A stretch of DNA of 64,000 bases from Eublepharis macularius (taxonomy: Eukaryota; Chordata; Lepidosauria; Squamata; Eublepharidae), in the NCBI RefSeq assembly GCF_028583425.1, contig NC_072801.1:19860001-19924000 (forward strand), written 5' to 3'. The notes beneath the pieces are model-generated. The model saw only the letters and a program-made list of their open reading frames with translations, was not told the origin of the DNA and did no database searches. The position numbers and the translations under genes are program-made. Numbering within the stretch: the stretch's first letter is position 1; every line of letters starts with the position of its first letter. Shown piece after piece: positions 2,737 to 63,497 of the stretch.

Positions 2737-2949
2737 TTCTAGATCATGGGCTAACAGGTAGACTGTATGCTTTATATGCATAAGTTCTTCCACCCCTGGT
2801 CTACCCCCCCCCCCAGCCTCTTTGATGAAAACTTCTTGGGTGGAAGGTGTTGGGAGAGACCATTTTTCTGGCGAGTTGCCGCCAGTCAAACAGACAATAC
2901 AGTGCAAGATGGACCAGTAATTGTGCAGTGCAGCTTCCATATTCATATG

Positions 2950-3169
2950 CAGGGCTTTTTTTCACCTGGAACGCGGTGGAACAGAGTTCCGGAACCTCTT
3001 GAAAATGGTCACATGGCTGGTGGCCCCGCCCCCTGATCTCCAGAACGGAAGGCAATCTAAACTCCCCTCTGTCTGGAGCTCAGGGGGTGGGGCCACCAGC
3101 CATGTGACCATTTTCTCCAAGGGCAACCCACTGAGTTCCACCACCTCTTTTTGCAGAAAAAAAGCCCTG
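2950..3169. mobile_element. Palindromic hAT-type MITE, copy 1 (220 bp)
   Basis: Begins CAGGGCTTTTTTTC and ends with its complement. Flanked by exact 8-bp duplications TTCATATG (2942-2949, 3170-3177). The arms contain a GTCACATGGCTGGTGGCCCC segment on one side and its complement on the other, so the single strand folds into one long hairpin. No coding capacity. CAGGG ends plus 8-bp duplications place it with hAT transposons. Confidence 0.88.
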
Positions 3170-3312
3170 TTCATATGTATATCATATTACAGAGCTGTGG
3201 AAAGGGCAGCTTCCTATATGTTCCTAAAACAGAGCATGTAGTGGAATTGCTTGAACATCCATCCCTGTCTTCATGGCGAAGGAACTTTCAGGATTACCCA
3301 TGAGTTGCCATT

Positions 3313-3504: not shown

Positions 3505-3820
3505 CAGGGCTTTTTTTCTGGGAAAAGAGGTGGTGGAACTCAGTGGTGGAACTCGGGACCACACAATGATGTCGCTTTAGGTTAGCTGGAACAAGGGGGT
3601 GGGGGTTAAAGTTTAAATTGCCCTAGTTGAAAATGGTCAGATGGCTGGTGGCCCCGCCCCCTGATCTCCAGACAGAGGGGTGCAGAGGGGCCAACGGCGT
3701 GGAGGGCAATCTCAACTCCGCTCTGTCTGGAGATCAGGGGGCGGGGCCACCGACCATGTGATCATTTTCAAGAGGTGCCGGAACTCTGTTCCACCACGTT
3801 CCTGCTGAAAAAAAACCCTG
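3505..3820. mobile_element. Palindromic hAT-type MITE, copy 2 (316 bp)
   Basis: Same family as 2950-3169. Exact 8-bp duplications CTTTTTAT at 3497-3504 and 3821-3828 delimit it. It is longer, with an extra segment in the left arm and loop including 'ggtggaactcgggaccacac'. The right terminal G-run is decayed (AAACCCTG instead of AAGCCCTG). Confidence 0.86.
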
Positions 3821-3829
3821 CTTTTTATC

Positions 3830-4585
3830 TATGGAACAAGTGTGCAGCGCTCGAATCCCGCCTTCTAGTTTCTGTATGTGTGTTCATTGCAGATTCCTCG
3901 CCATTGTCTTTAACATTTCAAGGGACTGGAGCATCTCGGCCTCTCCTTTGTTGTGTCTGGAGAGTGTTGTAAGCGCTCGAATTAATTGCAGGCTGCCATG
4001 GCGGCTGAGCCATCAAATTCCAGCCTCGGAGAGGTAATAGCCTGATGATTATTTAACAGTCTGGAAGTGCAGAGCCAGCTTTCCGTTGCTTTGGTTTGGT
4101 GCGCTTTAGGGTGAGTGTGCTATTCCTTTTTTAAAAAAAAAAATTGAGGAATTAAAAGGCTAAAAAGAAAAAGTCAGCAGGCCTTCAGCAATGAATGGCT
4201 CTAAGTACATTGTGGAAGTGAAAGCCATGAATCATTTTGACAAGTCAACAGCTAATGGGATTGCAAAATGTGCGTGTATCTGCAAGAGTAGAGGTACGAC
4301 GGTTATAAGACAGAGCTACTGCTCAAAATACATCCACATGTTCAACGGAATCCAGGTGTGAAGGCTTTTCATGACTCAAGGGTCTGATCTGTCATAGCTC
4401 CTCATTCCAAAAAGCCACGGGAACTGTAGTTTTATGAGAATGCTCAAACTTCTGTGTATCCCCATGATCGCACTCCTAGAAATAGAATTTCTTCTCATTC
4501 CTTGACAACCACACCGACAATTTAATTAAGGCAAGAATGCGAGAGACACACACAACAAGATGGTGCTCTGCTTTAGATGCTTCGG
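3830..4585. other. Intergenic, no gene seen
   Basis: Low-complexity A-rich tract at about 4125-4145; otherwise no recognised repeat or coding signal. Confidence 0.5.
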
Positions 4586-12944: not shown

Positions 12945-13879
12945 TCATGGTGATATTTTTATAGGCTTTCCATTTTTATCATATTGATAAACAAGCATTT
13001 TGATACAGTGCGAGTTGGCAGGGGATATCCAGGGGCTGCTGGTTATCGAAAAGTTATGGTTTGTATAGAACTGGACAGGTTGTTTCTGGCACTTAAAGAA
13101 GGCCTTGAGCGTGGCAGCTGCCATGGTGCGGAATCGCTTGCTAATGAAGCAGTACAGGAAGAAATTGATGGCTGTGTTCAGGAGCGCTAACATGTTGGCA
13201 ACATCGGAGACAATGTGGATGGACCAACTGTCATTTAGCGGCGAGACATAAAGGTGATACAAGATCATGATAATCCTCGGTGCCCACAGGATGGCAAAAA
13301 TGGAGGTGATGGTGAACAAGATGGCAGTTGTTTTCCCGGTGGAATAGCCTCTCAATCGGAAATGACACTTCTGCCGAAGCTTGTATACAATGATGGAATT
13401 CAAGATGAAAAAAATAGAACAGGGGACTAAGTAGATGGTAAAACAGTGGATCCAGATGAGGATGTGATGGACCAGCGTGCTTTTGTAGTCTTCTATCCAG
13501 ATGTTGGGCCACCAATAATAAGGGATGCTGGTCAGAAAACAAATGATGTAAACACTTACTATCACTTTTCGGGTGCGGGCTGGGTAAGAAACCATGTGAT
13601 ATTTCAGAGGATGGCAGACCGCTATGTATCGGTCGATGGTGAGAGGCACGGTAATCCAAATAGAGGTGTGAATGGAAGAAAACTCTAAGACGTCGATGAT
13701 TTTGTCCAGGACCTCTGGCATTTGCTCTTTCAGGATGAAATCTTCCAACAAAAAGTCTACAAAGACAATGAAGAAAAGCACCAGCAAGTCTGCAGCTGCC
13801 AGAGCTAAAAGGTAGTTGTAGGAGGATTTCTGCCTGCGAGCCACTAACTGTGACAGAATGATGACTGTCAAAATGTTTG
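12945..13879 (-). CDS. GPR139: GPR139, coding exon 2 (residues 36-346, TM1 to C-terminus)
   Basis: This exon encodes nearly the whole of an orphan class A G-protein-coupled receptor. In mammals GPR139 sits in the neuronal plasma membrane (habenula, striatum), responds to L-Trp and L-Phe and couples mainly to Gq/11; that is family knowledge. Visible in the joined protein: N37 (1.50) in TM1, LALAAAD with D66 (2.50), DRY at 118-120, TM4 with SIPYYWW (153-159), P188 (5.50), LWAP with P236 (6.50), and an NFFLY variant of NPxxY at 274-278. The C-terminal tail ends [10 protein letters not shown]. Position 3.25 is D94, so the usual TM3-ECL2 disulfide cysteine is absent. The acceptor is AG at 13880-13881 behind a pyrimidine-rich tract (minus strand) and the stop codon is at 12945-12947. 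The reading frame is uninterrupted. The identity is clear because the sequence reads as a close relative of human GPR139 from end to end; GPR142 is the only near paralogue and fits less well. Confidence 0.97.
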
Positions 13880-13972
13880 CTAGAGGGAGAGAGAGAGAGA
13901 AAGAAAAAAGGTTAGCTTCCCATGAGGTTGCAACCATGATTTGCATAGCCAGGCCATTTCAAATGTATATGT

Positions 13973-14617: not shown

Positions 14618-14907
14618 CAGGGCTTTTTTTCTGGGAAAAGAGGTGGTGGAACTCAAGACCGCACAATGATGTCACTTTGGGTCAGCTGGAACAAATGGGG
14701 AGTTTTTTAAAGTTTGAATGGCCCTCAGCGAAAATGGTCACATGGTTGGTGGCCCCGGCCTCTGATCTCCAGGCAGAGGGGAGTTTAGATTGCCCAATCT
14801 AAACTCCCCTCTGTCTGGAGATCAGGGGGCGGGGCCACCGGCATGTGACCATTTTTAAGAGGTGCCGGAACTCCGTTCCACCACGTTCCTGCTGATAAAA
14901 AGCCCTG
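14618..14907. mobile_element. Palindromic hAT-type MITE, copy 3 (290 bp), inside a microsatellite
   Basis: CAGGGCTTTTTTTC at the left and GATAAAAAGCCCTG at the right. The 8-bp duplications TCTATATC (14610-14617, 14908-14915) are part of a (TATATC)n array on both sides. The inverted arms share the 'gatctccaggcagagggg' and 'ctgtctggagatcagggggc' segments. Confidence 0.85.
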
Positions 14908-14977
14908 TCTATATCTATATCTATATCTATATCTATATCTATATCTATATCTATATCTATATCTATATCTATCTATG
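14908..14977. repeat. (TATATC)n microsatellite
   Basis: About 70 bp of TATATC units grading into TATC, then a short CA run. Remnants of the same array lie left of the MITE at 14598-14617. It borders a minus-strand Sauria SINE, whose 3' tail is the likely seed. Confidence 0.93.
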
Positions 14978-18913: not shown

Positions 18914-19119
18914 TTGAAGAGTCCGGTAGCACCTTTAAGACTAACCAACTTTACTGTAGCATAAGCTTTTGAGAACCACAGCTCTCTTCGTCTCATTTGA
19001 CGAAGAGAGCTGTAGTTCTCGAAAGCTTATGCTACAATAAAGTTTGTTAGTCTTAAAGGTGCTACTGGACTCTTTTCTATTTTGCTGCTGCAGACTAACA
19101 CGGCTAACTCCTCTGGATC
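18914..19119 (+). mobile_element. Palindromic retroelement, family A, copy 1 (206 bp)
   Basis: An inverted-repeat core (left arm 'agcataagcttttgagaacc', right arm 'ttctcgaaagcttatgctac') is followed by a one-sided tail ending 'aactcctctggatc'. Flanked by TCAGAATT (18906-18913, 19120-19127). Variable duplication length and a fixed 3' end point to retroposition. Confidence 0.75.
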
Positions 19120-21347: not shown

Positions 21348-21840
21348 CTGACTAGCAACCCTCACCAGACAGAGCTAGCAAGGGGTCTCCTTTGCTAAAG
21401 ACCTTTCCTCCTCATAATTATTATTTTCAAAAGAGTCATCTCCTGCCAGAGAGGCCAATATTGACATGACTCTTGAAATGCTACTGAGTTTCAGGTTCTG
21501 AGTTTTGATCTCCTGTCCTGGCAATTCTTTTGTGATGCACATCTGAAAACACTGTGTTGAGGGATACAGATGGGAAATAGAAGGAAATCTCTAAGGGCAA
21601 TCTCTCCTCTGCCATTTCTTCCACCCATCCAAAGAACTGAGAGAGCTTCTTAGATGGGTGTGGGAAGAGGTCATTCAATGCTGCATTTTTATTTGTCCAC
21701 AAGCAGAAGAGTTTGACCAATCCTACGATAGAGCAAATCTTCTCAAATGAGCTTGCTATTTATGCAGAAGAAACTCAACAAGATGCCTTCCCTCTATAAT
21801 CATGCTCCCCCCCCCCCCCAAAGGTGTGTGTGTGCATACG

Positions 21841-22062
21841 CAGGGCTTTTTTTCAGCTGGAATGTGGTGGAACGGAGTTCTGGAACTTCTTGAAAATGGT
21901 CACATGGCTGGTGGCCCCGCCCCCTGATCTCCAGACAAGGGGAGTTTAGATTGCCCTCTGTACTGCTCGGCTGGAGATCAGGGGGCAGGGCCACCAGCCA
22001 TGTGACCATTTGAGGGCAACCCACTGAGTTCCACCACCCCTTTTCCCAGAAAAAAAGCCCTG
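21841..22062. mobile_element. Palindromic hAT-type MITE, copy 5 (222 bp)
   Basis: Exact 8-bp duplications TGCATACG (21833-21840, 22063-22070). Ends CAGGGCTTTTTTTC and AAAAAAGCCCTG. Near-symmetric arms with the GTCACATGGCTGGTGGCCCC segment and its complement. Confidence 0.88.
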
Positions 22063-22273
22063 TGCATACGTATATGCATCCTAGAAGGGGAAGCGGAATG
22101 CACCTCTTTTTCAGTCTTCTCAAACCCCTGTTGACATCAGGAAAACTACAAGACATGCAAAAGTATTGTGCCACACCCACCAGGCACCTCTCCTAACATG
22201 CAGTGGGATATTATCCCCAAGACTCCGGCACATTGTTGGAATCTTGTGTGTACTCTCCTGCTCCTGCAGAGCA

Positions 22274-25376: not shown

Positions 25377-25677
25377 ACTATTATGTTACAGCATATTTAA
25401 AACTAGCCAGACCACCCCACATACACCTTTGCAAAATGCTATGACACACGCAAAAAGAAAGTTGCAAGAATCAAAACCATTAATCTAACAACTGATCTCT
25501 GTCCTTTGCATCAACTTTTCCTAGATCGTGAATAAAAGGTGTAAAAGGCTACAGATTTTTTAAAAGTTGCCCTTTGTACTTGATCCTCCTCCTTTAAATT
25601 GAAGAGGAAAATGGGCTACCTTTTCCTTTATGCAAACTCTCTGATTCTCAGTGTTGTTCTCAATAAGTGAACAGTCC

Positions 25678-25873
25678 AGTAGCACCTTTAAGACTAACCA
25701 ACTTTATTGTAGCATAAGCTTTTGAGAACCACAGCTCTCTTCATCAGATGCATCTGACGAGAGCGGTGGTTCTCGAAAGCTTATGCTACAATAAAGTTGC
25801 TTAGTCTTAAAGGTGCTACTGGACTCTTTACTATATTGTGACTACAGACTAACATGGCTAACTCCTCTGGATC
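25678..25873 (+). mobile_element. Palindromic retroelement, family A, copy 2 (196 bp)
   Basis: Flanked by an exact 13-bp duplication TGTTCTCAATAAG (25665-25677, 25874-25886). Core palindrome plus tail ending 'aactcctctggatc' as in copy 1. The right arm contains CTGACGA, a short GAG/CUC stem and GAAA, the spacing of a hammerhead core. Confidence 0.85.
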
Positions 25874-32860: not shown

Positions 32861-33029
32861 GATAGGGAAGGAGCCCCCTGCCACCCCAACCTCCCCCATC
32901 CTGCTGTTCAAAGACCAGCTCCTTTCAGGGGAGCCTCGTACCATGCTTCCCTCCTCTGTCCAGTCCCACAGAGCATCCGGAAAGAGGAGTAAGTTGGGAG
33001 TTAAATCCATTTGGGGACTGACTTAAGAA

Positions 33030-33570
33030 AGCGACCCGTCCTACAGGCTGGGCGGTCTCCCCCTTGCCCCGGGCATCCTCTGGCCGCTGGAGCCTCGCAC
33101 CCCCTCGCGCCGAGCCCACCACGGAGCTCCTCCGCCGGAAAGCAGCGGGGAGGCGGGCGCGCCCCTTACCTGGGAGCCCCAGGCAGAGCAGCAGGCTGTA
33201 GTAGACCACGGGCAGGAACCCTAAGCCGCAGCCGGGCAGGGAGCTGTTGCGGATGTGGATGTAGTCGTGCTCCATGGACGCCGGCTTCGGAGGGGCCGGG
33301 GAGGGCAGAGGCAGCGCCCGCCTGGATGCCGGCTCCGCAGTCACCCTCGGCCGCCGGAGCGCAGGACTCGCCGGCCCGGCCCCGCCGCTGCCTGGCGGAG
33401 GAGGAGGAGGCGGCGGCGGCACATGGCCGCGGACCTATGAGCGGCGAGGAGGGCTCGGCCAGCCGCGGCGCGCCAAGGGTTAACCCGCTCCCCGGCTCCC
33501 CTTCGAAGGCGCGCCCTCGCCCGGGCGCTCCGCCGGGTCCTAAAGGGACCTGCGCCGTTCGGCCTCCCGC
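33030..33570 (-). promoter_or_regulatory. GPR139: CpG-rich promoter / 5' UTR region of GPR139
   Basis: The stretch around the start codon is strongly GC-rich with dense CpG, unlike the AT-rich surroundings, and covers exon 1, the 5' untranslated region and presumably the transcription start. No TATA box is obvious. Long plus- and minus-strand open frames here (proline-, arginine- and glycine-rich) are by-products of base composition. The extent is judged by eye; the exact start site cannot be read from sequence. Confidence 0.7.
33170..33275 (-). CDS. GPR139: GPR139, coding exon 1 (residues 1-35 plus one base of codon 36)
   Basis: This is the start of the GPR139 coding sequence. It encodes a short extracellular N-terminus with an N-glycosylation sequon at N10 (NSS, 10-12), then the first half of TM1 ([17 protein letters not shown]). 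The 5' splice site reads G|GTAAGG on the minus strand at 33170/33169. Exon 1 contributes 106 nt and exon 2 935 nt, together 347 codons including the stop, and the junction restores LGLP-ANIL without a break. The ATG at 33275 was chosen because MEH is the start of known GPR139 proteins; its -3 base is T, but +4 is G. The total of 346 residues is slightly shorter than the human protein (353), the difference lying in the N-terminus. No signal peptide is expected or seen. Confidence 0.94.
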
Positions 33571-37261: not shown

Positions 37262-37566
37262 TCACCAAGCTGCCTTATACAGCCAGACCGTTTGCCTATC
37301 AAGGGGAGTCTTGTCTATTTTTTTTTATTTTAAAAACAAATGTTTAATCAGAATTTTCTGGCAAGACTCCAACACAGAACAATTTTTGACAGGTGGCATG
37401 CTGATGAGCAAGGGGGGGGGGAAATGAGGGAAGTCTTGTCTACTCTGACTGGTTCTCAGGTCAAGGTTTTCTACATCACCTGCTCCTTTTCACTGGGGAT
37501 GCCAGGTATTGAACTTGGGACTTTCTGCATGCAAAGCAGGTGCTCTACCACTGAGCCGCAGCCCCT
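37262..37566 (-). repeat. Sauria SINE split by a short poly(A)-tailed insertion
   Basis: 'ccaagctgccttatacagcc' (3' end) and 'actctgactggttctcaggt', 'tattgaacttgggactttct' and 'ctaccactgagccgcagccc'. An 11-bp duplication AGTCTTGTCTA (37307-37317, 37432-37442) brackets a 114-bp insert. Confidence 0.8.
37318..37431 (-). mobile_element. 114-bp 5'-truncated LINE insertion inside a Sauria SINE
   Basis: The T-run at 37318-37328 is a poly(A) tail on the minus strand and the insert is flanked by AGTCTTGTCTA on both sides. This is the footprint of target-primed reverse transcription, most likely L1. Confidence 0.7.
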
Positions 37567-37764: not shown

Positions 37765-37960
37765 CCTTTGATTTTACTTATTTCCCTGCTTATACTCTGC
37801 TTGTCCACCCAAAGTGGCTTACAACATTGCTGTCCATTTTATCCTCACAACAGCCACCCTGTGAGGTAGGCTAGGCTGTGGGACAGTGACTGGCCCAAGG
37901 TCACCCAGTGATCTTCTGTGGCAGAGTGGGGATTCAATCCTAGGTATCCTAGATCCTAGT
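37765..37960 (-). repeat. CORE-like tRNA SINE, split by family A
   Basis: 'cacccaaagtggcttacaac', 'ccctgtgaggtaggctaggc' and 'gggattcaatcctaggtatc'. The remainder (about 38592-38630, 'cctagtctgagtctctgact') lies beyond the inserted element. Confidence 0.75.
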
Positions 37961-38591
37961 AAAGAGTCCAGTAGTAACTTTAAGACTAACCAACTTTATT
38001 GTAGCATAAGCTTTTGGGAACCACAGCTCTCTTCGTCAGATGCAACTTTATTGTAGCATAAGCTTTCGAGAACCACAGCTCTCTTCATCAGATGCATTGT
38101 CAGATGCATCTGACAAAGAAAGCTGTGGTTCTTGAAAGCTTATGCTACAATAAAGTTGCATCTGACGAAGAGAGCTGTGGTTCTCGAAAGTTTATGCTAC
38201 AATAAAGTTGCATCTGACGAAGAGAACTGTGGTTCTCAAAAGCTTATGCTTCAATAAAGTTGCATCTGACGAAGAGAGCTGTGGTTCCCAAAAGCTTATG
38301 CTACAATAAAGTTGCATCTGATGAAGAGAGCTGTGGTTCTCAAAAGCTTATGCTTCAATAAAGTTGCATCTGACGAAGAAAGCTGTGGTTCCCAAAAGCT
38401 TATGCTACAAAAAAGTTGCATCTGATGAAGAGAGCTGTGGTTCTCGAAAGCTTGTGCTACAATAAAGTTGCATCTGACGAAGAGAGCTGTGGTTCTTGAA
38501 AGCTTATGCTACAATAAAGTTGGTTAGTCTTAAAGGTGCTACTGGACTCTTTACCATTTTTCAACTACAGACTAACATGGCTAACTCCTAC
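37961..38591 (+). mobile_element. Palindromic retroelement, family A, copy 3, expanded (631 bp)
   Basis: Flanked by ATCCTAGT (37953-37960, 38592-38599). Same terminal pieces as the other copies ('aaagagtccagtag' left; 'acatggctaactcctac' right). The core has two antisense units, then eight direct units of 52 bp (about 38109-38524). Confidence 0.85.
38109..38524 (+). repeat. Tandem array: eight 52-bp units
   Basis: Each unit runs from 'tctgacgaagagagctgtgg' through 'gcttatgctacaataaagtt' to GCA. Variants include CTGATGA/CTGACGA, TTCTCGAAA/TTCCCAAAA and GCTACAA/GCTTCAA. No spacers, so not a CRISPR. The unit is the right arm of the family A palindrome. Confidence 0.92.
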
Positions 38592-40767: not shown

Positions 40768-40902
40768 AGAGGGCCAAGCTACAAGTGACGAATGACACTT
40801 GAGCGGCAAGTGGATCGAGTGGAGAGCAAGTGGAGGGCAAGTGAACAGGGAGGAATACACTTGCCGTTCAAGTGTAATTTGTCACTTGTAGTTTGGTCCA
40901 GA
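40768..40902. mobile_element. Palindromic MITE, family C, copy 1
   Basis: 'gagggccaagctacaagtga' at the left, 'tcacttgtagtttggtcc' at the right. The arms contain 'gacacttgagcggcaagtg' and 'cacttgccgttcaagtgt'. A short loop of about 35 bp. No clear target duplication. Confidence 0.75.
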
Positions 40903-43800: not shown

Positions 43801-44360
43801 AGAGTCAGCGTTGCATAGTGGTTAGAGCATCAGACTAGAATTGGCGAAACCCAGATTGAAATCCCCATTTGCACCAAGATTGAGCTAAACTACATGAGAC
43901 AAATTAAACAAAGACACTCAATTGAAGGAAGACACCATGTTAGCCAGGAAGCATAGTTTGAATTTCACCTCTCTCTATAGAGCCGGCAAAGATCACTCCT
44001 CAGAGAGTTTGTTAATTTCACCTCTACAGAGCTGGCAAAGACAATTCCTCAGAGGGTTTGTTAATAACTGACAGAGCCTTTGGGGAGGCAAAGAGGAAAT
44101 TAACAAGCCCTCTGAGGAGCGATCTTTGCAGACTCTGTAGAGAGAGGTGAAATTCAAACTATGCTTCCCAGCTAACATTGCATCTCCCTTCACTTGAGTG
44201 TCCTCATGTAATTCATCTTGTGTAGTTTATCTCTAATTGGGTGACTTTGAACAGCTCACTGTCCCTCAGCCTAACCTACCTCACAGGATTGTTTTCCAAA
44301 TGGGGGACAGAACCACGTATATTATCCTGAGTTCCTTGGACAAAGGGTGGATAAAATACT
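43801..44360 (+). repeat. CORE-like tRNA SINE split by a palindromic element
   Basis: The head 'gcatagtggttagagcatca' to 'gaaatccccatttgcacc' is at 43801-43880 and the body 'ttgggtgactttgaacagct' onward at 44236-44360. Between them sits the family E element. Confidence 0.72.
43886..44229. mobile_element. Palindromic element, family E (about 344 bp)
   Basis: Ends 'aaactacatgagacaaatta' and the complement of 'aaactacacaagatgaatta'. Arms share 'gcatagtttgaatttcacct' and 'aggtgaaattcaaactatgc'. A diverged relative lies at 46341-46490. No certain target duplication. Confidence 0.68.
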
Positions 44361-45583: not shown

Positions 45584-46028
45584 GTGGCCAACCCTCACTT
45601 GGTCATAGATCCAGAGGAGTTAACCATGTTAGTCTGTAGTTGCAAAATAGTAAAAAGTCCAGTAGCACTTTTTAAACTAACCAACTTACTTGTAGCATAA
45701 ACTTTCGAGAACCACAGCTCTCTTCGTCAGATGCATCTGACGAAGAGAGCTGTGGTTCTCGAAAGCTTATGCTACAAATAAGTTGGTTAGTCTTAAAGGT
45801 GCTACTGGACTCTTTACCATTTTGCAAACCCCACTTGGGAAATTCATGGAGATTGTGGGCAGTGCCTGGGGAGGGCAGAGTACAGGGAAGGAAAGGAACT
45901 CGGCAGGGATGTGATACCACAGATTCCCCACTCTGCAGCTGCCATTTCCTCCTGGGGAATTGATCTCTGAGCCTGGAGATCAGTAATCCCAGCAGAACTC
46001 CAGGTCGCACTGGGAGGTTGGCAACCCT
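45584..46028. repeat. Family G repeat, copy 4, split by family A
   Basis: Starts 'gtggccaaccctcacttgg', is interrupted at 45603, resumes 'ccccacttgggaaattcatg' and ends 'gggaggttggcaaccct'. Confidence 0.68.
45603..45826 (-). mobile_element. Palindromic retroelement, family A, copy 4
   Basis: Minus orientation: 'gatccagaggagttaaccat' at the left is the complement of the usual 3' end. The duplication is AACCCTCACTTGG against AACCCCACTTGG (one-base difference). Arms 'cgagaaccacagctctcttc' and 'gaagagagctgtggttctcg' are perfect complements. Confidence 0.82.
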
Positions 46029-48726: not shown

Positions 48727-49496
48727 CAGGATCTAGAGGGGGGGCAGGGGGTAGTCTGCCCCCGGCGCCGCCAGGGAGGGGGCGCCGGAAGCAGCTCCCA
48801 GAGCGTGCAGGCGGCAGGATGGGCAGCCACGCTGCCTTTTGCTTGCCCCGCGGGACAGGGGGCGGCTGGCTTGCCGCGCACCCCCTGTCCTGCAGGGCAG
48901 GAAAAGGGCAGCGCGGCCGCCCATGCCATTCACTTGCCCTGCAGGAGAGGGGGCAGCCGGCCGCCCCCTGTCCCGCGGGGCAGGTGCATGGCGCGGGCAG
49001 CCTCACAGGCTCCCGCGCTGCCTTTTGCTTGCCCCGCGGGACAGGGGGCGGCCGGCTTGCAGCGCACCCCCTGTCCTGCAGGGCAGGCAAAGGGCAGCGC
49101 GGCCGCCCACGCCGCTCACTTGCCCCACAGGAAAGGGGGCAGCTGGCCGCCCCCTGTCCCGCGGGGCAGGCGCATGGCGCGGGCAGCCTCGTAGCCCCCC
49201 ACACTGCCTTTTGCTTGCTCCGCAGGACAGAGGGCGCGCGCGGCAAGCCAGTCGCCCCCTGTCCCATGGGGCAGGCGAAAGACAGCGTGGGGGGCTGCAA
49301 AGCCGACCGCGCCATTCGCTTCTGAAGTGAATGGTGCGGGCAGCTTCTCAGACCCCCGTGCTGCCTCCGGCGCGCAGCGTGATGACGTCATCAAAATGAC
49401 GTCATCACCCCATGTCAGGAGCGTGCGCATGCTGTGTGCGCGCGCAAGGGCTGGCAAGCGTTGCCCCAGGCGCCGGGAGCGCTAGATCCGGCCCTG
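48727..49496. mobile_element. GC-rich hAT-type element, 770 bp, with 186-bp internal repeats
   Basis: Exact 8-bp duplications TGTTTGAA (48719-48726, 49497-49504). Ends CAGGATCTAG at the left and the complement of CAGGGCCGGATCTAG at the right. The interior repeats with a 186-bp period (starts 48832, 49018, 49204, the last diverged), and each unit contains short inverted 'cccctgtcccgcggggcagg' type segments. No transposase. The long open frames on both strands are products of GC content and symmetry. Confidence 0.88.
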
Positions 49497-50861: not shown

Positions 50862-51770
50862 CAGCAGCAGCAGCAGCAACAGCAACCTTTATTGGCATTA
50901 CATCCATGTTAACAAAAACACTCGACGCAACCAGAGGGCCAAACTACAAGTGACGAATGACACTTGAACGGCAAGTGTATTCCTCCCTGTTCACTTGCCC
51001 TCCACTTGCTCTCCACTCCAACCACTTGCTGTTCAAGTGTCATTCATCACTTGTAGCTTGGCCCTCAGTCTACAAATACACAACTCGCCTCATAGATGCA
51101 AGATACAAAAATTTAGCTACAGTTTCGATAACTTTTTGGTTCTGAGTAGCCAATAGGAAGATAACTTTACATTTATCAGATTTTCCAATTTGCTCTCTCA
51201 ACAGCGGGTCAATGAGTATGGGACGTATATCACAGTAATAAGTACAATACAAAAAACATGTTCCAGGGTTTCTATGTCTCGCTGAGCACAAGTGCATAAA
51301 CTGTTAGCATATGGCGTTTTATGGAATCTCCCATAAATTATCGCAGAAGGTAGCACATTAAACCAAGCTAACGAATAAGCTCTGCAATAATGTGGGGCCA
51401 CTAAACAAGTGAGATATTCTGCCCTATACCCATGGGGTAAAAGCCCCAAACCTAGGGGTGAACGCTGCCTGTTGCAAGACTCCTGAGATTCTGAATCTCG
51501 ATGTCAAGGAGTCTTTGTCTGATCAGTGCATAAACTGATTTTTCTGTGAGGGAAAACAAATCTTCAATATTATGGTTAGATTTAATAGCAGCACCATCAA
51601 GGCATATTCCAACAGCAGCTGACCCCAACCCAGTCAGTGAAACTAATGGACCCAGAACAGTAAGGAGTAATAACAAAACCTTCCCAGGTAAAACAAAACC
51701 AGCTAGAACCCAAGGCTGCAAAACGAAGACTTTTTTGGGAATAAGCGCTAGTGAATAAAATGGGACTTAC
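50862..51770 (-). mobile_element. Non-LTR retrotransposon 3' end, frameshifted, with a MITE in its UTR
   Basis: Minus-strand frames encode YALIRQRLLDIEIQNLRSL, then AYSLAWFNVLPSAIIYGRFH, CTCAQRDIETLEHVF and, in another frame, DKCKVIFLLATQNQKVIETV. A cysteine pair followed by ETLEHVF is a typical LINE C-terminal pattern. At least one frameshift and stops separate them. The family C palindrome at 50933-51069 interrupts the 3' UTR. Confidence 0.6.
50933..51069. mobile_element. Palindromic MITE, family C, copy 2
   Basis: 'gagggccaaactacaagtga' and 'tcacttgtagcttggccctc'. Inside, 'cttgaacggcaagtg' and 'cacttgctgttcaagtg'. Confidence 0.8.
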
Positions 51771-54326: not shown

Positions 54327-54532
54327 CTGAGGCCAAGCTAGAAGTGACGAACTACACTTGAATAGCAAGTGAACAGACTCACATGTCTTCCTCCCTGTTC
54401 ACTTGTGCTCCACTTGCACTCCACTTGATTGAGTGGAGTGCAAGTGGAGTGCAAGTGAACAGGGAGGAATACATGTGAGTCTGTTCACTTGCCATTCAAG
54501 TGTAACTCGTCACTTCTAGCTTGGCCCTTGGA
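54327..54532. mobile_element. Palindromic MITE, family C, copy 3 (longest arms)
   Basis: 'ggccaagctagaagtgacga' and 'cgtcacttctagcttggccc'. Arms of about 95 bp include 'caagtgaacagactcacatg' and its complement. The change to 'tagaag' is shared by both arms. Confidence 0.82.
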
Positions 54533-55048: not shown

Positions 55049-55548
55049 CACAAATGGGCTTAGAAAGGTGTATTTAGGATTGCACTGTATGTGCTCAGCT
55101 TGGACTTGCGGCTTTTAAAAAATTCTACTCTTTTATCCTTTCTGTGTTATTCTATTTTGCTGACTTGGTTGTTGTTTTTGTTTTGATTCTGTGTTTTAAA
55201 TGTTACTGGTTTGGTATTTTTATCGGGTGCTGCCTGGATAAAACTTCCAAAAGGCAAGAGATGATGCACAAAATAAGGAAAAGGGCAACAGAGATTGGCC
55301 ATCAGTAATGTGTGGACCTGATTATTTTCAATTGCCAAGCATTTCCTAGCATTTTTACACTGAAAGCAAGTTAGAGTATGAAGCAGATCCACTCCATTTT
55401 TACTTATCTGAGTCATTGCTTTGTGGCTGCAGTGAGGAATGGTGACTGAGAACAAGCTCCTAAAAACATTTTAGTTCACTCTGGATAGTCAGAATGCTTA
55501 ATGTACCTTCAAACTTACTTTACAGTTAGGTTAGGGGGTAGACATGGG

Positions 55549-56430
55549 CACGAACCATGAAAAAACCAAACCATGCAGTTTGTGGTTCATGGTGTTTTCA
55601 CAAACCAGGAACCATGAACTGGGGCAAGTTCATGAACCGGTTCGTGGTTCATGGGGTTTAAATGCCCCTTTCCAGCCGCTTCGCAGCAGCAGGGAAAGGG
55701 GCATTTAAACCCCCGGATCAGCTGCTTGTCGTGGAGATCCCTGACAAGCAGCTGATCATTTAAGCAGCGAGGCTGTTTAAATGCTGCTCGGAGCAGCAGG
55801 GAAATGGCCATTTAAAGAGTGGGTAAGGATTGGCTGGCTGGCTGGGAACTCCTGGCCAGCCAGCCAGCCAAGCCTCACCTGCTCTTTAAATGGCCATTTC
55901 CCTGCCACTCTGAGCGGCCATTTAAACAGCCCCGCTCTTTAAATGGGCCCACTCTTTAAATGGGCCTCACCCGCTCACCCATTCTTTAAATGGCCCCCAT
56001 TTAAAGAGCAGGTGAGGCTTGGCTGGCTGGGAGTTCCCAGCTGGCCAGCCAAGCCCCACCCGCTCTTTAAATGGCCATTTCCCTGCTGATCCAAGCAGCG
56101 GGGAAATGGCCATTTAAACAGCGGGGCCATTGCCATTTAAACTGTGGGTGGGGCTTGGCTAGCCTGCCAGGAACTCCTGGCTGGCCAGCCAAGTGCCCGC
56201 TGTTTAAATGATCAGCTGCTTGTCGGGGATCTCCCTGACAAGCAGCTGATCCGCAGGTTTAAATGCCCCTTCCCCTGCTGCTTTGCAGTGGCAGGGAAAG
56301 GGGTATTAGTGTTTAAAACGAACCAAATGAACCAGTAGAACAGTTTGTGGAAGTTCATGGAAACGAGCTTTCACGAACCACTGGTTCGTGGGGGGTTTTC
56401 GGTTCATATTCTGGTTCATGCCCATCTGTA
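55549..56430. mobile_element. 882-bp nested foldback element, hAT-like ends
   Basis: TAGACATGGGCACGAACC at the left and the complement of TACAGATGGGCATGAACC at the right, flanked by TTAGGGGG (55541-55548) and TTAGGGAG (56431-56438). The interior is a ladder of inverted repeats: 'catttaaacccccggatcag' with 'ctgatccgcaggtttaaatg', 'ggctggctgggaactcctgg' with several complements, and many 'gctctttaaatggccatttc' units in both directions. No coding capacity. Confidence 0.82.
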
Positions 56431-56493
56431 TTAGGGAGTGAGTGCAACACTGTGGTTAGAATGTCAGATTGGGCTCTGGAAGATGAGGGCTCT

Positions 56494-59844: not shown

Positions 59845-60047
59845 ATGAAGCTGCCTTATAAGCAAATCACATCACTGGTCCATCAAGGCCATTATTGTCT
59901 ACTCAGACTGGCAGGAGCTCTCCAGGGCCGGAGGCGGAGGTCTTTCCCATCTCCCACTTTTTTTTGTTACTGGAGACACCAGGGATTGAACTTGGGTTCT
60001 TCTGCATGCAAAGCCAATGCTCTGCCACTGAGCCATGGCTCCTCCCT
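59845..60047 (-). repeat. Sauria SINE
   Basis: 'tgaagctgccttataagcaa', 'attgtctactcagactggca', 'gggattgaacttgggttctt' and 'tgccactgagccatggctcc'; the best preserved copy here. Confidence 0.87.
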
Positions 60048-62685: not shown

Positions 62686-63497
62686 GTTACGACCCCTTTC
62701 TTTCTCTTGGGTAAATTTGGTCTTTACGCCTTTTATTCTTGCCCTCTCTTGGTAAATTGCTGCCACCAGGAATTAAATTCCAGAATAACTTAAAATTTCT
62801 CTTTTTAGTAACGTGCCTAAGGGTCAGGCTTTTTTGTGGTACTATGTGGCCCTGAGGAAAGGAATGGGATATAGGAATGACAGATACTCTGGGATATAAA
62901 AAAACAAAGTAAACTTTTATTTTTATAAGAAGCATATCAGTTTCATATTATTTCTAAAACCTGATGGTTTCAAAAGAGTAGTTCTCAATTCTTACTTTAC
63001 TTAAACCAAGTCACATAGATCTTCTCTCAGGCGCACACACAGTTTGCCTGCTTTTCTCTGACTGAATGTTCTTTCACAAACACACAGTTCAGGTTTCCAT
63101 ATAGGTCATATTTCTCTCAGAACTGCTTAAAAATACTCAGGCTGCACACAGCTTGCCTCTGTTGCCCAGACTGAATCTTTTTTCTCCACTCTGAGAGCCA
63201 AACTACAAGTGATGCCTGACACTAGTTGGATACTTGTCAGCTTCCCTCAAGTTTTGATGGGAAATGTAAGCAGCTTGGCAGAATGTTGGACAAGGGACAG
63301 TTGAAAAGTCCATTGGACAGCAGTCGGAGAGCCAAGCTGCAAGACCAGGATGCCTACATTTCCCATCAAAACTTGAGGAAAGCTGACAAGTGTCCAACCT
63401 GTGTCAGGCGTCACTTGTAGCTTGGCTCTCAGTCTAAAACTGCATTCATTCTGCCCACACTCTCAGTCATCAACCAATCATATCACTCACTCATCCC
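62686..63497. repeat. Unassigned repeat-like sequence, possibly an LTR piece
   Basis: Begins TGTTACGACCCC, a common start for LTRs in reptiles. At 63020-63180 two related segments ('cagtttgcctgcttttctct' and 'cagcttgcctctgttgccca') follow one another. Interrupted by the family C palindrome at 63190. Confidence 0.3.
63190..63432. mobile_element. Palindromic MITE, family C, copy 4 (243 bp)
   Basis: CTGAGAGCCAAACTACAAGT at the left and 'cttgtagcttggctctcag' at the right. Arms also share 'cattggac' loop-side words and 'cccatcaaaacttgagg'/'cctcaagttttgatggg'. Both arms carry GAGAGCC instead of GAGGGCC. Confidence 0.82.

Follow-up and report, generated by a model that had tools for sequence, protein, structure and literature searches.

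hAT transposons are described as having short terminal inverted repeats of 10–25 bp (PMC3942097). The target of Hermes is given as nTnnnnAn, and its subterminal repeats are described as bound by a BED domain (PMC10368747). The same target pattern serves as a mark of the Ac family (PMC8961557). Elements with variable-number internal repeats are known from Drosophila, where Tetris (PMC4079207) and Galileo (PMC4168063) have been described. Foldback and hairpin-rich transposons have usually been explained after the fact. A single genome that holds many copies with the same ends, differing rows of palindromes and a fixed joint makes the origin, growth and exchange of hairpin arrays testable by comparison of copies. 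The element described here, from Eublepharis macularius, is very probably a nonautonomous hAT (Ac-group-like) transposon of about 0.35–1.2 kb with a core of palindromic cassettes.

The window, i.e. the whole stretch of DNA analysed, comprised 64,000 nucleotides of contig NC_072801.1. The surroundings of the element are non-coding and lie far upstream of GPR139; the main coding exon of this gene occupies 12945–13958 (−) (PDB relative 7vug, E 1.4e-165). The open frame at 32925–33434 (−) is presumably the first exon of this gene. The foldback element spans 55539–56430 (892 bp) and is flanked by TTAGGGGG and TTAGGGAG. An earlier note had placed an 882-bp foldback element at 55541–56438. The structure was found as described; the start and length were a few bases off, and the end had taken in the right duplication. 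No stop-to-stop frame of at least 110 aa overlaps the element. The parts of the window copy are as follows.

55531–55538 (no strand): left target-site duplication TTAGGGGG, in the same place relative to the ends in relatives
55539–55557 (+): left terminal inverted repeat and left tip, TAGACATGGGCACGAACCA, matching the majority sequence of 30 relatives at every position
55539–55656 (+): left end zone, with GAACC/GGTTC motifs 3 + 3 in 55539–55652, likely transposase-binding subterminal repeats
55663–55703 (+): cassette A, palindromic, bounded by TTTAAA at 55657–55662 and 55704–55709
55710–55758 (+): cassette S, with a 42-nt hairpin at 55716–55757
55765–55775 (+): short cassette s, between TTTAAG at 55759–55764 and TTTAAA at 55776–55781
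55782–55810 (+): cassette H, a half-length B
55817–55884 (+): cassette C, copy 1, a long hairpin GGCTGGC...GCCAGCC
55891–55920 (+): cassette B, copy 1, shortened
55927–55999 (+): four short cassettes of 11, 11, 24 and 9 nt with TTTAAA between them, probably collapsed C/B cassettes
56006–56065 (+): cassette C, copy 2
56072–56112 (+): cassette B, copy 2, full length
56119–56135 (+): cassette remnant, 17 nt
56142–56202 (+): cassette C, last copy, carrying the GGCTAGCC variant, which is commoner among last-position C cassettes
56209–56257 (−): cassette S', the reverse complement of S
56264–56311 (−): cassette A', the inverted counterpart of A
56318–56430 (+): right end zone, with GAACC/GGTTC motifs 3 + 3 in 56313–56430
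56412–56430 (−): right terminal inverted repeat and right tip, inverted, TACAGATGGGCATGAACCA
56431–56438 (no strand): right target-site duplication TTAGGGAG

The nested layers reported by the earlier note were recovered. The outer inverted repeat is formed by ATGGGCACGAACCA at 55544–55557 (+) and ATGGGCATGAACCA at 56412–56425 (−). The second layer, around GATCAGCTGCTTGTC, consists of two 42-nt hairpins (55716–55757 and 56210–56251), both of which sit within 105-nt inverted arms that are 87% complementary. The flanking duplication, which the note had called near-perfect, matches at 7 of 8 positions (55531–55538 vs 56431–56438); a match of at least 7/8 has a frequency of 0.0006 among random 8-mer pairs drawn from the window. 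The right duplication is compatible with nTnnnnAn. The GAACC/GGTTC motifs number six in each end zone of about 115 bp and are absent from the 660-bp core (55653–56312), which contains 15 TTTAAA hexamers and has 55.6% G+C. The strong structure that the note had expected of a transcript was confirmed by RNA folding. One strand folded to −594 kcal/mol, compared with −326 kcal/mol for 20 shuffles (sd 7.5; z about −36), and the other to −578 compared with −317 kcal/mol (z about −35). Since folding was far below that of the shuffles on both strands, the foldback structure is not due to chance.

The host assembly (2.24 Gb, 72 contigs) was searched for relatives. The whole element gave 6343 first-look candidates and the left 114 bp alone gave 2808, numbers of unscored candidates rather than copy counts; 40 were scored in each search. 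Two sets of copies were compared: the 39 other scored copies from the whole-element search (set 1), and 34 further copies chosen by the left 114 bp only (set 2). The 30 good copies of set 1 were 420 to 1227 bp long.

The core of the copies followed a common plan, A S s H (C B)n C S' A', with TTTAAA or a near form at the joints. When the copies were cut at TTTAAA, the left order A S s H C was found in 30 of 34, followed by B-C units, and S' and A' closed the row where the right side was retained. In the window copy the row is A S s H C B, then four short remnants, C B, the 17-nt remnant, and finally C S' A'. Most cassettes were palindromic in themselves: the 346 TTTAAA-bounded cassettes of 20–90 nt taken from 56 elements matched their own reverse complements with a median identity of 68%, compared with 47% when the same lengths were shifted by about a quarter. 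An identity of 70% was reached by 44.5% of the cassettes and by 0.3% of the shifted ones. The TTTAAATGGCCATTTCC modules that the earlier note had seen in the inner part are present in the element. Their reading as a true arrangement in both directions did not hold, since most inner modules are roughly their own palindromes and need no inversion to appear in both orientations. The asymmetric loop of S had the forward orientation on the left in all 30 copies with a recognised S. On the right, 22 of 23 copies had it reversed, L147 being the exception. Only the outer A-S and S'-A' arms are a true inverted pair.

In 20 two-armed copies, the left and right arms were 86.3% identical within a copy and 85.8% between copies, and 416 of 2000 permutations gave a value as high. 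Because nothing pointed to conversion of the arms or to their having recently formed anew, the outer arms appear, from these identities, to date from the founder of the family. The inner part differed from copy to copy, with one to five C cassettes per copy, in agreement with the variable module number that the note had proposed to look for. Identity within copies was no higher than between copies, either for C (79.1% vs 80.1%) or for B (78.7% vs 82.3%). Recent amplification or gene conversion within a copy was rejected on these values and those of the arms. CTAGC occurred in 10 of 16 C cassettes in last position, compared with 4 of 30 in first and 3 of 28 in middle position, and last C cassettes resembled each other with an identity excess of 0.027 (0/1000 shuffles). 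The sole C of copy L163 was of the last type, and that of L168 could not clearly be placed there. In some short copies, cassettes seem to have been lost between like ones, and the number of C-B units apparently varies in the middle of the row, by loss as well as gain. Module number was rejected as a subfamily mark: C number was unclustered, and the best tree required 11 changes, with shuffles needing no more. The tree is star-like and poorly resolved, with 1 of 31 inner branches well supported, and the supported branches force only 2 changes. Expansion of the arms by repeated rearrangement, as formerly suggested, was not borne out: the arms appear ancestral, it is the C-B middle that varies, and self-palindromic cassettes require no repeated inversion.

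We considered whether the hairpin core was selected as a source of structured RNA, such as an siRNA or miRNA precursor acting on the transposase or on host genes. The folding of both strands far below shuffles, at the z values given above, would suit such a function, as would the retention of the cassette plan across diverged copies. However, copies with the same ends differ freely in how many cassettes they carry and even in which ones, and the element has no Rfam match. We regard this explanation as unlikely.

Differences in cassette identity defined a sister subfamily. Among 58 copies, 46 carried S-type cassettes, eight matched strings of a second subfamily and four fitted neither rule, although two of these four (L184 and L187) resembled the second type by eye. 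The subfamilies were alike from the left end through cassette A (25-column identities of 0.92–1.00, with 0.60 at one indel) and over about 135 bp at the right end (0.88–1.00, then 0.68). Past the next TTTAAA they diverged, with identities mostly of 0.4–0.68. The second subfamily likewise consisted of palindromic units with TTTAAA between them. The least expected result was that the TTTAAA joint was retained and the cassettes were replaced.

We tentatively propose that TTTAAA is a working joint at which strand switching builds, multiplies, loses and swaps palindromic cassettes as units, a possibility to which we give somewhat less than even weight. The switching would take place at the self-complementary TTTAAA in the replicating or excised element, and would explain the palindromes, the changes in number and the exchange together. 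If this is true, the family is a modular cassette system in a defective transposon, with subfamilies arising from the exchange of sets between fixed ends. Alternatively, the cassettes could be nested insertions of tiny palindromic elements that target the TTAA within TTTAAA in a piggyBac-like manner, with TTTAAA copied on each side. All joints are TTTAAA or a near form with TTAA inside, and the sister subfamilies differ exactly between TTTAAA joints, as such insertions would predict. Yet the cassettes share no common terminal repeat, ending instead in CCCCCGG, TGGCC, CTGTGG, CAGC, GGGCCC or CTATCAG. Many are 9–41 nt long, below the size of a transposon, and S/S' and A/A' are inverted partners, which would be unexpected from independent insertions. 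Nested insertion is improbable.

The terminal repeats of the family are 19 bp long and imperfect, with the majority sequences TAGACATGGGCACGAACCA and TAGAGATGGGCACGAACCG in 30 copies; the family ends can be written as TAGA(C/G)ATGGGCACGAACC. A matching pair of ends was found in 33 of the 39 copies of set 1. Their 8-bp duplications matched at six or more positions in 30, at seven or more in 26 and at all eight in 18. In set 2, a right end with a duplication of at least 6/8 was found in 24 of 34 copies, and the duplication was exact in 13. A convincing right end or duplication was absent in 6/39 copies of set 1 and 10/34 of set 2. These counts come from end positions picked by a joint score that counts the duplication itself, and the control with flanks 20–80 bp farther out, in which 0 of 165 reached 6/8, was made without the same joint-score choice. 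The 31 exact duplications of the two sets favoured T at position 2 and A at position 7, each with 29 occurrences. CACGAAC/GTTCGTG motifs were dense in the majority end zones (nine in the left 128 bp, six in the right 135 bp). They are comparable to the subterminal repeats of Hermes, and by this analogy could be bound in the same way.

The target-site duplications of 8 bp and the short terminal inverted repeats are those of hAT transposons, the nTnnnnAn pattern is that of the Ac group, and many dispersed copies with no coding frame are usual for MITEs. The assignment to hAT is based on the ends and target duplications. We also weighed an element of the Foldback/Mutator or the P (Galileo) type, in which the transposase would act on long, repetitive terminal repeats. 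The foldback shape and the variable-number internal repeats, as in Tetris and Galileo, speak for it. The long inverted repeats of Foldback (FB) elements run up to the tips, however, whereas here the conserved inverted ends are short (about 19 bp) and the 105-nt arms are internal. The duplications also differ, being 8 bp with nTnnnnAn here, as against 7–8 bp with GTATTAC as given for Galileo and 8–10 bp as given for Tetris. We consider an element of this type very unlikely, and retain the Ac-like hAT assignment.

The joined flanks of 8 of the 58 copies aligned across the insertion point to uninterrupted repeats elsewhere, and these are therefore empty sites that reveal insertion into other repeats. 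The best alignments were those of L178 (88%, 178 bp), L150 (82%, 105 bp), L186 (78%, 198 bp) and L164 (78%, 232 bp); those of L140, L179, L189 and L191 were weaker. A ninth candidate, L170, was left out as it matched only itself. A scar of inverted duplication or gene amplification at a single, immobile locus, which the foldback shape and the lack of a further copy in the 64-kb window might suggest, is practically refuted by the dispersed relatives with the same ends, the target duplications and the empty sites. The element is one copy of a large mobile nonautonomous family, and the absence of other copies with these ends, which the note had named as grounds for abandoning a mobile family, did not occur. 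For annotation, the foldback that lies upstream of GPR139 counts as a mobile element of the ordinary kind and not as a feature particular to this locus. Outside the host genome, the GATCAGCTGCTTGTC 15-mer was found in at least 120 stretches of viral contigs, where the best BLAST match of the element was 22 bases (E 0.019), as expected by chance. The end pattern was found in 11 viral stretches whose contexts showed no element, and a 21-base cassette pattern had no match in the viral contigs. GTDB genomes gave no matches, and no description of such a family was found in the open-access papers searched.

A partner encoding the transposase was sought among the hAT dimerisation domains of the host genome (4145 candidates, 150 scored), some of which lay in frames of more than 900 aa. 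For 12 of the 150 scored domains, about 700 bp of downstream sequence was compared with the ends of the family; the best match to the terminal repeat was 12/19, and BLAST gave nothing better than E 0.36. Frames of at least 150 aa in the 34 loci L179–L212 were LINE-like or uninformative by eye. Two long copies were rejected as autonomous partners after inspection by eye: L203 holds a LINE insertion and no such gene, and L188 has no recognisable transposase. Separately, hAT dimerisation-domain matches lay in frames of 918–921 aa without inside stops at five places (C1:20954523, C6:132106937, C2:46302251, C1:2751906 and C4:86900597), which suggests a hAT family with long intact frames.

On the reading that we prefer, an Ac-type hAT transposase supplied in trans would bind both to the terminal inverted repeats and to the CACGAACC/GGTTCGTG repeats that are dense in the two end zones, excise the element and reinsert it elsewhere. 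The core between the end zones would be passenger DNA made of TTTAAA-joined palindromic cassettes. Its outer arms A S ... S' A' would have arisen once, before the sampled copies spread. Replication slippage aided by hairpins, or recombination between cassettes of one kind, may then have added and removed cassettes in the inner C-B part. Entire cassette sets may have been swapped at TTTAAA joints, and sister subfamilies that differ in the core but not in the ends would be the outcome. Divergence from the majority sequence outside CpG-like sites was 4.8% in the left 270 bp and 7.9% in the right 135 bp; the window copy diverged by 2.8% and 6.7%, respectively. By sequence divergence, the spread of the family is an old burst and not a recent one. 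Hairpin arrays of this kind could seed satellite DNA, fragile sites or small-RNA precursors.

The window holds further palindromic repeats. One family with AAAGAGTCCAGTAGCACCTTTAAGACTAAC ends is present at 37959–38554, 18917–19074, 25658–25841 and 45640–45827; its copy at 37959–38554 contains a 52-bp unit eight times in tandem, a second example of a foldback that has expanded internally in tandem. What seems to be another MITE family, made up of palindromic repeats whose ends are related (GGCCAARCTACAAGTGAC...), lies at 40771–40899, 43882–44233, 50934–51066, 54331–54526 and 63191–63432. A set of related repeats, each wholly or partly palindromic and with CAGGGCTTTTTTTC at the ends, was seen at 2939–3182, 3505–3836, 14618–14918 and 21835–22075. 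A G+C-rich palindromic array with a unit of about 186 bp, which stays open in several frames, occupies 48820–49319. A frame at 3658–4411 of locus L206 resembles it by eye, and the array may, from its sequence, be dispersed in the genome. Two tRNA-Ala (TGC) predictions by ARAGORN and Rfam, at 37494–37565 and 59971–60042 (−), are either genes or tRNA-derived repeats.

The closest described analogues are nonautonomous Ac-group hAT elements with a hobo/Hermes-like target choice, such as BuT2- and Mar-type MITEs (PMC10368747, PMC8961557, PMC3942097). As described there, they share with our element the short imperfect terminal inverted repeats, the 8-bp nTnnnnAn duplications, the dense subterminal motifs, the lack of coding capacity and the many copies. 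Our element differs in that its interior consists of TTTAAA-joined palindromic cassettes and is not a recognisable deletion derivative of a transposase gene. Galileo, in Drosophila, is similarly described as varying from copy to copy in the length and structure of its inverted repeats, with tandem repeats within them, but it belongs to another superfamily (P), has the target GTATTAC and extended terminal repeats, and its repeats are much longer (PMC4168063). Tetris of Drosophila virilis is, by its description, likewise a modular nonautonomous foldback element with duplications in the 8-bp range and variable internal tandem repeats, and has a shorter relative with the same ends (DAIBAM), as is seen here (PMC4079207). 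In contrast to our element, Tetris is tentatively assigned to Mutator, and its long terminal repeats contain direct repeats of about 220 bp (PMC4079207). The element described here has hAT-like ends and carries its repeats in the middle, where each spans about 110 bp and consists of two palindromes.
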